In this document: positions 3,750 through 56,303 of the stretch, one piece after another | Layout: the number at the start of each line of letters is the position of its first letter | How positions within the stretch are numbered: the stretch's first letter is position 1 | Assembly (NCBI RefSeq): GCF_900078545.1 | Contig: NZ_FLLS01000002.1 | Coordinates: 682,001 to 746,000 of the forward strand | Length of the DNA: 64,000 nucleotides | From: Olegusella massiliensis | GTDB taxonomy: Bacteria; Actinomycetota; Coriobacteriia; Coriobacteriales; Atopobiaceae | Direction of reading: 5' to 3' | Position numbers and translations under genes: made by a program | The notes under the pieces: model-generated | Told to the model about the DNA's origin: nothing | What the model saw: only the letters and a program-made list of their open reading frames with translations | Databases searched by the model: none

Positions 3750-3994
3750 GCTCTTTCCTTACCCTCGGTGGTCATGGGACCTCGGAGATGAACTCCTGGG
3801 ACCGCCACATCGCAGGCCCTTCCTGCGCTGCCGTATCCTCCCCAGCGGACCACATCCTGTGTGGAACTGCTTCACTAGATAATCTGCCTTCAGCTGCACT
3901 TATTCGGTCAGCACACCAAACGAGTCACATTTGAGACAGCAATCCCCTAGATTCACAGCCTTGTTAGTGTACACTGTGCCGGGCGTCTCCACAA
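3750..3994 (-). promoter_or_regulatory. rplC operon promoter and ~210 nt leader
   Basis: A minus-strand promoter is readable at 3966-3994: TTGTGG (-35, 3989-3994), 17 bp spacer, TACACT (-10, 3966-3971). The transcript would then have roughly a 210 nt leader before the rplC ATG. The leader contains a perfect 6 bp hairpin CGCAGG/CCTGCG (3811-3816 with 3822-3827) and a CCACA/TGTGG pair nearby. Long leaders are expected for autoregulated ribosomal operons, but I see no match to the E. coli L4-binding leader. The regulatory role is inferred. Confidence 0.5.
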
Positions 3995-4118
3995 TCTTTT
4001 TGGAATTATTTTCAGTTGCTCCACAGAACTGTTCTCATTACAAAAGAGCCTGCCTGCGAGCGTAAGCGACATAAAAATTCATTGAAGCATCCAAAACACT
4101 AAGTTCTACTGCATATTT

Positions 4119-15193: not shown

Positions 15194-15491
15194 TCAAACG
15201 CCACGCTTTGTTTCACTTTTTTAGCCAAACGCCACGTTCTATTTCACACCCTTTCACCCCAAGTGCCTAACGCCACGTTCTATTTCACTTTTTTAGCCAA
15301 AAGCCACGTTTCATTTCACCCGAAAAAAATCTACCTGGGCAAACGTCACACCCTTTGAAACGAAGTGTGGCTTTTGACTTTTTTTCTGAAACGAAACGTG
15401 GCTTTTGGCAGGCAGGACCACTCTGCTTGAAATGATTCGTGGCGTTTGACAGGCAGAGCCGCTCCATTTGAAACAGAACGTAGCTTTTGGC
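15194..15491. repeat. Head-to-head array of eight 24 bp motifs (locus A)
   Basis: Four plus-strand copies start at 15194 (23 bp), 15224, 15265 and 15296. Four inverted copies start at 15355, 15386, 15427 and 15468. The unit is GCCAAA(A/C) then GCCACGTT, two variable bases and a TTTCA(C/A/G) end. Start-to-start spacings are 30, 41, 31 and then 31, 41, 41 bp, close to three or four helical turns. A 35 bp centre containing AATCTACCTGGGCAAACGTC separates the two halves. The array lies between the rpoC terminator and the str operon upstream region. No coding capacity is believable here. Confidence 0.85.
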
Positions 15492-15511
15492 AAGCAGAGC
15501 GAATTTGGCAT

Positions 15512-46888: not shown

Positions 46889-47083
46889 GCCAAAAGCTAC
46901 GTTGCGTTTCGTGCCGCTTCAAGGCAGGTGCCAAAAGCCACGTTCTACTTCACTTTTTTAGCCAAAAGCCACGTTTCATTTCACGCGAAAAAATCTACCT
47001 GGGCAAACGTCAAGCCCTTTGAAACAGAACGTGGCGTTTGACAAACGGGAGCACGACTTTTGAAATGATCTGTGGCGTTTGGC
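46889..47083. repeat. Head-to-head array of five 24 bp motifs (locus B)
   Basis: Three plus-strand copies of the same 24 bp motif as at 15194-15491 start at 46889, 46930 and 46961. Two inverted copies start at 47019 and 47060. Spacings are 41, 31 and 41 bp. The 34 bp centre (46985-47018) again carries AATCTACCTGGGCAAACGTC. The inner part, about 46951-47023, is nearly identical to 15286-15359. It lies between the clpC terminator and disA. Confidence 0.85.
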
Positions 47084-47156
47084 AAGCAGCTCTTGTCGAA
47101 GTAGGACGAGAGCATGTTACGTTCCGCGCGCCGATTTATCTAGATGCTCGGCACAG

Positions 47157-54425: not shown

Positions 54426-54656
54426 GACCCCTATTCGCTCTGACGTGCGATATGCGCCATTTATTGACAAAATAGATTAGAAATTTATGCCTCATTTTCT
54501 GTAACACTGCTCTTACCTGCTATTTTGTAAAAGTGTACAGGCACGTCAAAACCCGAGAAAACACCTGCTTTGTATTTTGGTCAATCTACCTGCAAAAACA
54601 TCACTTACTTAAAACTAGACAATGGCGCATATCGTCATTTAGAGCGAATGAGGGTC
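54426..54656. mobile_element. 230 bp element with terminal inverted repeats, copy 1
   Basis: The ends are inverted copies: 54426-54461 and 54621-54656 match in 29 of 36 positions when one is reversed (outer part GACCC...ATTCGCTCT, inner part CGATATGCGCCATT). The right half, from GCACGTCAAAACCCGAG onward, is nearly identical to copy 2 at 56044-56273, while about 75 bp after the left end differ. No clear target duplication is seen. It may be a MITE or a structured RNA gene. The stretch 54316-54425 before it holds nothing I recognise. Confidence 0.75.
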
Positions 54657-54776: not shown

Positions 54777-55994
54777 TTGCAGCCGCCACAGCAGCCGCAT
54801 ATTGTTCTCTCGCACACAAGCGCCTTGTGGTACCACCGCCTTGCTGCTGCAGGAATATTTTCTCCGCCTTTTTCGTGCAATTACAAGACTCTTGAATCGG
54901 CAAAGGATTGTTTGTCCAAGGTACCTCATTTAGACAAATCTTGGTTCCACATTTCAACAACAGATCTTGCTGCTCGGTCTATCTATATCCAGGAAGATGT
55001 CGAAAATTTTTTGTTGGAGCATCCTCACGAAGACCCATGGGCAGCACTGGCAGCTTCTTCCCTACTACCTCATAATTTTCAGCCACTAAAGAACATAGAG
55101 CTCCTTTGCAATTCATCGGCTCATCGCCATTGGCGCAATAATGTGGCCGTCCACCGCCACTCTACAGCGCTCCCTAAGGGATCGGTTTTGCGAGCTGGAG
55201 TTGGTTTGTACGTAGCGTCCCCAGAGTTTACGATTTTCCAGATGGCGCGCTATCTCAAGGATGTGCATTTATTAGCAGCACTTATTACCGAATTTTCCGG
55301 GTCTTACGTCTTGTTACCTCAAGGGCTATTGTGCTGTTCGCGCTATACAGCTGAAGGGAAGACGCCAATACAAAGTGGCCGTTTGATTGGAGATGGCTAT
55401 GTTGAATGTGCGCCTCTCATCTCAGTAGATAATCTCAAACATCTTCTAAACAAATATCCAGAGCTACCTGGAAGTACACTTGTTGAAAAAGCCCTTAAAG
55501 CCAGTGGTAATGGCAGTGAATCTCCTTTTGAAACTGCAGTGAGCGTTGAGTTGCAGCTCATTCGAAGTCGTGGTGGTGCAGGTGCAGGCTCGGCACGATT
55601 AAATAAAAAAATACCTTTTAATGAGATAGAACAACAAATGGCAAATGGCCGCAGTCATGCTCGCGCAGATATCTTGTTTGTTCGTCCCGATGGTAAACGA
55701 ATAGACGTTGAGCCTGGAGGAGTATTCGGACACTCAGGCAAAAAGGCGATGGACTTAGATAGACGTCGGCGTCATGCGCTTGAACATGCAGGCGTAGAAG
55801 TTATTGACATCACATGGGATGAATATGCCAACAGAGATGTGTGGGAAACCATTTGTCGACGAATAACGAATCACCTTGGAAAACGTTTTCATGTGCCATC
55901 ATTATCGATACAAAATAAACAACAACTGGTTCATGATGATTTCTGTAATTGGAATTGCATGCGAATATTCCCACCAGATGCATGGCGAAGATAG
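54777..55994 (+). CDS. AbiEi-like N-terminal domain fused to PD-(D/E)XK/DUF559-type nuclease
   Basis: A 405-residue protein of a type I associate with Coriobacteriia. The N-terminal half has SHTSALWYHRLAA and the block SPEFTIFQMARYL, as in AbiEi-like and similar regulators. The C-terminal domain has SPFETAVSVELQLIRSRGGAG, then ARADILFVRPDGKRIDVEPGG, where Asp and Glu could be the metal ligands of a restriction-like or DUF559/Vsr-like nuclease, and VIDITWDEYANRD. TTG at 54777 follows AGAGGT; a TATAAA at 54741-54746 could be its -10. It is flanked by the two ~230 bp elements, suggesting a mobile cassette. The function is unknown. Confidence 0.7.
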   Translation: MQPPQQPHIVLSHTSALWYHRLAAAGIFSPPFSCNYKTLESAKDCLSKVPHLDKSWFHISTTDLAARSIYIQEDVENFLLEHPHEDPWAALAASSLLPHNFQPLKNIELLCNSSAHRHWRNNVAVHRHSTALPKGSVLRAGVGLYVASPEFTIFQMARYLKDVHLLAALITEFSGSYVLLPQGLLCCSRYTAEGKTPIQSGRLIGDGYVECAPLISVDNLKHLLNKYPELPGSTLVEKALKASGNGSESPFETAVSVELQLIRSRGGAGAGSARLNKKIPFNEIEQQMANGRSHARADILFVRPDGKRIDVEPGGVFGHSGKKAMDLDRRRRHALEHAGVEVIDITWDEYANRDVWETICRRITNHLGKRFHVPSLSIQNKQQLVHDDFCNWNCMRIFPPDAWRR

Positions 55995-56043: not shown

Positions 56044-56273
56044 ACCCCTATTCGCTCTGACGTGCGATGTGCGCCATTTAGCAGCCATTTTTATTTAATA
56101 TTTGATACAGATTCTCCACGGTATAGTCATCTACCAGCGGTTTTATATACCTCTTAAGGCACGTCAAAACCCGAGAAAACACTTGCTTTGTATTTCAGCC
56201 AATCTACCTGCAAAAACATCACGTGCTTAAAATTAGGTAATGGCGCACACCGTCATTTAGAACGAATAGGGGT
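56044..56273. mobile_element. 230 bp element with terminal inverted repeats, copy 2
   Basis: Same orientation as copy 1. The left end 56044-56078 is inverse to 56239-56273. Where copy 1 has ATAT in both inner arms, copy 2 has ATGT in the left arm and the pairing ACAC in the right, so the arms have changed together. AATCTACCTGCAAAAACATCAC is common to both copies apart from flanking changes (written here in two parts: AATCTACCTG and CAAAAACATCAC). The right end is directly joined to a 13 bp perfect hairpin. Confidence 0.75.
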
Positions 56274-56303
56274 GGCCGACTGGGCCGGCCACCCCTATTT
56301 TGT
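56265..56303. terminator. 13 bp perfect hairpin joined to the element end
   Basis: AATAGGGGTGGCC (56265-56277) pairs perfectly with GGCCACCCCTATT (56287-56299) around a 9 nt loop. TTTTG follows on the plus strand. It lies between convergent nuclease and DUF389 genes and likely terminates both. The left arm is also part of the element end. Confidence 0.7.

Follow-up and report, generated by a model that had tools for sequence, protein, structure and literature searches.

The window analysed here, a stretch of 64,000 nucleotides of Olegusella massiliensis, holds two copies, W1 and W2, of a short element with inverted ends, which flank the gene of a 405-aa protein (Table 1). The question raised by this locus is what kind of entity the element is. 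A first-pass annotation proposed that it acts as a folded nucleic acid, either a structured RNA or a hairpin substrate for a recombinase.

Table 1. Positions in the window of the two element copies, their parts and neighbouring features.
Feature	Position	Strand	Remarks
W1 element	54427..54655	+	229 bp; ends 122 bp 5' of nuclease gene start
W1 left inverted arm	54427..54461	+	inverted-repeat search (54426-54461 there)
W1 box 1	54512..54520	+	CTTACCTGC
W1 box 2	54585..54593	+	TCTACCTGC
W1 right inverted arm	54621..54655	-	inverted-repeat search (54621-54656 there)
Gene of 405-aa protein with C-terminal Vsr/EDxHD-like nuclease domain	54777..55994	+	profile matches, invariant residues
W2 element	56044..56273	+	230 bp; begins 50 bp 3' of nuclease gene stop
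W2 left inverted arm	56044..56078	+	inverted-repeat search
W2 box 1	56130..56138	+	TCTACCAGC, element position 87
W2 block CAAAACCCGAGAAAA	56165..56179	+	element position 122
W2 box 2	56203..56211	+	TCTACCTGC, element position 160
W2 right inverted arm	56239..56273	-	inverted-repeat search
Perfect 14-bp inverted repeat	56265..56299	.	takes in last 9 bases of W2

Both copies have imperfect inverted arms of 35 bp, which in W2 are complementary at 28 of the 35 positions. Identity between W1 and W2 is 95% in the left arm and 86% in the right arm, but 41% over columns 39-113 as compared to 89% over columns 114-195, in agreement with the earlier remark that the right half is conserved and the stretch after the left end has diverged. 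The example given in that annotation of inner-arm bases changing together (ATAT/ATAT in copy 1, ATGT/ACAC in copy 2) is correct in part. At columns 26/205 an A-T pair is replaced by G-C and pairing is kept, but A24.C207 of copy 2 is a broken pair, since ATGT would need ACAT. At the right end of W2, CGGCCACCCCTATT adjoins the perfect 14-bp hairpin of which the last W2 bases form an arm. This hairpin is probably the terminator of the minus-strand DUF389 gene, and we infer that W2 abuts, or was inserted into, that likely terminator. Several simple identities were rejected. An invertible promoter is ruled out for W2 because it sits between two converging genes, and the element encodes no conserved peptide, with stops in all six frames in several copies. 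W2 was unmatched in both a plasmid and a phage collection, and its arm pattern was absent from viral contigs.

The window genome (G000) has four copies, W1, W2 and two elsewhere in the chromosome, whereas its sister species and nearest relative (G001) has seven intact and up to eight partial ones, giving up to 15 whole or partial copies; the partial ones are interrupted by assembly gaps, contig ends or deletion, and some contig-end pieces may be halves of one copy. The window arm pattern was absent from all 148 other genomes scanned, and two candidate distant carriers of W2 in the same family (G008 and G059) were discarded, their matches being confined to the box-2 region. An alignment of 11 copies has 230 columns in every row and is gapless save for one base in W1, even though the lowest identity between copies is 59-60%. 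Parsimony over these copies requires 333 substitutions and a single indel of 1 nt, against about 14 indels expected from the flanking intergenic DNA of G000 and G001, a small control with 4 indels per 94 substitutions. Element length stays at 226-230 bp across 22 elements. One collapsed copy was encountered (L025 3439-3500), in which the interior is gone and the left arm is fused almost directly to the outer right arm.

Comparison of sites between the sister species gives a view of how the copies behave. The sites of W1, W2 and A4 are each occupied by a copy in G001 as well. At the W1 site the flanks are the same but the G001 copy is inverted, and over 230 bp it matches its partner copy at 100% identity, which indicates that copies exchange sequence and that the arms permit flipping of the insert. 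A search with joined flanks for clean empty sites of eight copies found no intact one; the site of B17 in G000 is occupied by a decayed element end and that of B10 is a rearranged region. No target-site duplication was found in the flanks of window-type copies, though age could erase one. In two other genomes, G004 and G002, the sequence is collinear on one side of the nuclease gene and dissimilar beyond the element on the other (L173 1-6456 versus L174 1-6552), so that rearrangement near elements is likely. The elements occur in convergent, divergent and tandem settings, some near the housekeeping genes clpC, uvrA and a phoU-like gene.

The pairing of the arms was followed in 14 elements from four genomes, aligned in one orientation. 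In this set 93.1% of the 490 arm cells are paired, as compared to 32.2-48.5% when the partners are slid by 1-3 columns, and 22 of the 35 arm pairs have changed on both sides. Box 1 lies at positions 86-87 and box 2 at 156-160; each is within two mismatches of TCTACCTGC in 13 of the 14 elements, B21c being without the first and L174b without the second. Covariation across copies in related genomes was the check proposed by the first-pass annotation, and its description of co-varying arms around a conserved unpaired core is real and general across the elements. With the 11 window-type copies only, RNAalifold pairs little outside the arms and the both-side changes are modest (6 of 38 predicted pairs); strong arm covariation emerges once diverged relatives join the set.

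Such pairing could reside in RNA or in DNA. Shuffled sequences fold as well as the element interior, whose z-scores run from -1.8 to +0.8 on both strands in all 14 elements. An RNA helix is expected to favour G.U among its mispairs. The arm mispairs comprise 29 G.T versus 18 A.C in 22 elements (P 0.14), which does not establish such a preference, and 18 of each in 22 elements outside the genus. Rfam gave zero matches to the elements at gathering scores, and chance-level matches below these. The near-zero interior scores and the absence of a G.U preference indicate a dyad in DNA. The structured-RNA half of the original proposal thus finds no backing, and for the window element a DNA site, mobile or targeted by an enzyme, is more probable than a folded RNA. 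Three processes could keep the arms symmetric: the action of a dimeric protein, the use of a cruciform, or repair between the arms. The active form may be either an extruded hairpin or a double-stranded dyad.

A covariance model of the 14 elements was run on 397 genomes, with scoring limited to the top candidates, five at most in each genome. By this measure 64 genomes matched, with strong matches of 226-230 bp in G000, G001, G002, G004 and G035. The 26 best loci (L204-L229) were followed; one is in G035 and the other 25 belong to different genera and families. Inverted arms pairing at 24 or more of 28 positions are present in all but L224, and the arm sequences are mostly unrelated. A box with at most one mismatch occurs in 25 of the 26 (the exception is L217), a frequency that is partly selected because the box is already in the model. 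Other families of Coriobacteriales carry palindromes of 140-230 bp with unrelated arms, 30-38 bp long depending on the repeat family, and one common core. This core is an asymmetric motif in the middle of the element, YTACCWGC, or in fuller form CAAGCCrTCTACCTGCGGTTTTG, with a single occurrence in most repeat families and two in the window type. After exclusion of L206, L224 and L225, the fuller form is the centre consensus of 22 of 23 elements outside the genus, L217 being without the box. The carriers are gut and mouth bacteria. Among the papers listed by literature searches, none printed the core motif or combined Atopobium with miniature inverted repeats, and none appeared to deal with Collinsella or coriobacterial repeats of this sort or with AbiEi-linked terminal inverted repeats; the palindrome group is large and apparently undescribed so far.

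Further palindromes were seen in the same genomes. The window has a second family at 15225-15492 and 46890-47085, with AAAAGCCACGTTTCATTTCA units facing a centre ATCTACCTGGGCAAACG near the same core box, and this family is also found in G001 (L021 12924-13125, L023 13596-13793, L025 11777-11927). In G001, GGTTCATCCTTCGAG palindromes are abundant and occur in many places; several of them have a box similar to GCAGGTCAT at their centre (joined-flank query 659-740).

The protein encoded between W1 and W2 offers a candidate partner for these sites. All 20 homologues compared share seven invariant residues (S249, E252, G266, G267, D298, E312 and H319). When a profile of the 20 family members was compared with solved structures, the one match at E < 0.01 was 3r3p (E 3.7e-4), which we take to be the EDxHD homing endonuclease I-Bth0305I; the entry itself is named 'Mobile intron protein'. 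The N-terminal part, which may resemble AbiEi-type proteins, yielded no identifiable DNA-binding domain. The Pfam family MTES_1575, described as a Vsr-fold nuclease domain (PMC3710099), scores below its cut-off on the 405-aa protein (17.9 versus 38.2 bits) and touches 10 of the 20 family members. PADLOC gave weak nuclease matches only, in 2 of 20 members each, NCBIfam offered no nuclease or repeat-related model for the family, and a two-sequence structure model reached a pLDDT of 31. The gene is a free-standing open reading frame, outside any intron or intein.

The association of element and gene extends well beyond the window. In all six homologues that are at least 39% identical (G000, G001, two in G002, G004 and G035; five genomes), an element of 226-230 bp lies within 300 bp of the gene. 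The two homologues in G002 and the one in G004 are at a different genomic position, unaccompanied by other genes of the window locus, and their elements, of 226-228 bp, start 22-75 bp past the stop and have arms of other sequence. In G035 the element is upstream of the gene and the contig ends shortly past it. Arm sequence differs between element families beside close nuclease homologues. Element orientation relative to the gene also varies, L175 being opposite to L173, L174 and W2.

The same association was found when genes were chosen by protein search alone: of 27 such genes, 9 lie within 300 bp of a boxed inverted repeat, and the other 18 have none in that range. With the two window-type loci left out, eight elements fall in the 14.8 kb near the genes versus two in the other 116 kb of the same loci (P 4e-10); on non-coding bases only, 1.6 are expected versus the eight found (P 2e-4, or 3e-3 with one pseudo-count). 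The box is present in 8 of 13 repeats that were found by their arms beside protein-chosen genes, a count that none of 500 shuffled 9-mers reached. From the other direction, 4 of the 26 loci obtained with the element model, which is blind to genes, adjoin a nuclease-family gene, three of them at 18-40 bp, and 22 have no such gene nearby. At one locus (L185) palindromes of about 110 bp, TTGCAACCTGAGG, with two boxes each, flank a distant nuclease-family gene on both sides (2450-2559 and 3936-4047).

In view of the above, we consider W1 and W2 to be members of a Coriobacteriales superfamily of intergenic palindromic DNA repeats linked to a Vsr-like EDxHD protein family, in the manner of REP/RAYT systems, and assign this reading a probability of about 0.5. 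The recombinase half of the first-pass proposal survives in modified form: palindromic DNA acted on by a nuclease or recombinase agrees better with the data, given the EDxHD/Vsr-like genes beside elements and the occurrence of the core near phage integrase genes. In the proposed mechanism, the protein of each family would read the arms of its own elements as paired half-sites of one dyad, in duplex DNA or in an extruded cruciform. It would then cause a break or pairing near the core, through which copying or conversion of the element from site to site could take place, and recombination between copies would homogenise the arms and could flip an element in place. Covariation of the arms would follow from the need of both to fit one protein and from their homogenisation by inter-copy recombination. 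The sequences show the family, its arms, core and gene linkage, the dispersed copies and one flipped, homogenised copy; binding, cleavage and movement are parts of the proposed mechanism. Several observations count against this reading: neither a clean empty site nor a target duplication was recovered, 18 of the 27 nuclease genes and 22 of the 26 model-derived elements have no partner nearby, element orientation to the gene varies, no DNA-binding domain is recognised in the protein, and box presence in the model-derived elements is partly selected.

A more far-reaching version is tentative. Here the palindromes would be selfish throughout the order, each EDxHD/Vsr-like nuclease having private, co-evolving arms around a universal core, and temperate phages would have taken this core as a multi-copy chromosomal landing site. 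The exact core CAAGNCNTCTACCTGCGGTTTTG is present in six viral contigs (L240-L245), in each case without hairpin arms. An integrase-family open reading frame lies 290-540 bp from the core in four of the six, and none was found among the frames tested in the other two. This proximity suggests that the viral core is an attachment core, in which case phages may land in these repeats.

Alternatively, the element could be a MITE, an ordinary non-autonomous transposon mobilised by a transposase that escaped notice; hitch-hiking or shared safe insertion sites would then account for the association with the nuclease. Its shortness, its terminal inverted repeats, the lack of a conserved open frame and the dispersal near housekeeping genes would be in agreement with this, but target duplications are not seen at window-type copies. 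Among 140 family genomes the outer end sequence occurs in only 3, twice in these same elements and once beside a terminator-like hairpin, and no longer element with the same ends turned up. Indels are almost absent and box positions fixed despite up to 40% divergence, and one core is common to families whose arms are unrelated. We regard a MITE as unlikely.

The viral contigs could also mean that the central motif is the core of a tyrosine-recombinase site, at which phages integrate or the element itself recombines, and the inversion of one element between the species would be consistent with this. However, the core shows little dyad symmetry (5 of 11 positions), no integrase gene was seen among the neighbours scanned with Pfam, and the inversion is also explained by homologous exchange through the arms, which makes this explanation rather improbable. 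A role as immobile operators, or as decoy or immunity sites, through which the nuclease regulates itself or acts in defence would account for the short distance between element and gene in the six closest homologues, but many copies are far from any such gene and the copy numbers of the sister species differ, so we hold it to be very unlikely. A structured non-coding RNA, to which the co-varying arms and the retained length and internal motifs would be suited, is hardly credible in view of the interior scores on both strands, the lack of a G.U excess, the Rfam result and sites in all three gene settings.

If W1 and W2 are indeed nuclease-linked palindromic DNA repeats, a cognate DNA site and a probable role could be assigned to an unnamed Vsr-like nuclease family, and the natural pairs of protein and arms around a constant core would form a readable code for nuclease DNA choice. 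Part of the intergenic repeat content of the Coriobacteriales would be explained, perhaps together with a phage landing site in that order.

Several known systems can be compared with these repeats. The Collinsella-1 RNA motif (RF01700) is described as a candidate structured element from gut Actinobacteria (PMC2864571). It gave no match to the elements in Rfam scans, even at E up to 5. Integron attC and other folded recombination sites have palindromic arms of variable sequence with conserved pairing. The present arms share these properties, but here the conserved motif is central and not in the arms, and no integron integrase was found among the scanned neighbours. Correia elements, ERIC sequences and MITEs are short, intergenic and multi-copy, with inverted ends and a rather constant length. 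All of this applies to the window element too; the differences are that target duplication was not found and that a core is common to families with differing arms. I-Bth0305I is reported to dimerise on a site of nearly 60 bp (PMC3943268). The 405-aa protein resembles it in its C-terminal domain and in the invariant acidic and histidine residues, but its gene is not intronic and is tied to a palindrome family, and cleavage by this protein is a prediction. REP/BIME sequences with RAYT are palindromes scattered through intergenic DNA; some adjoin the gene of an enzyme that processes DNA, and the repeat sequence is specific to that gene. The adjacent protein is Vsr/EDxHD-like here, with no Y1/HUH transposase match in Pfam, and the elements, of 150-230 bp, share an asymmetric core, but the arrangement is alike in each of the three traits: dispersal as intergenic palindromes, the adjoining of some copies to a DNA-processing enzyme gene, and gene-specific repeat sequence.
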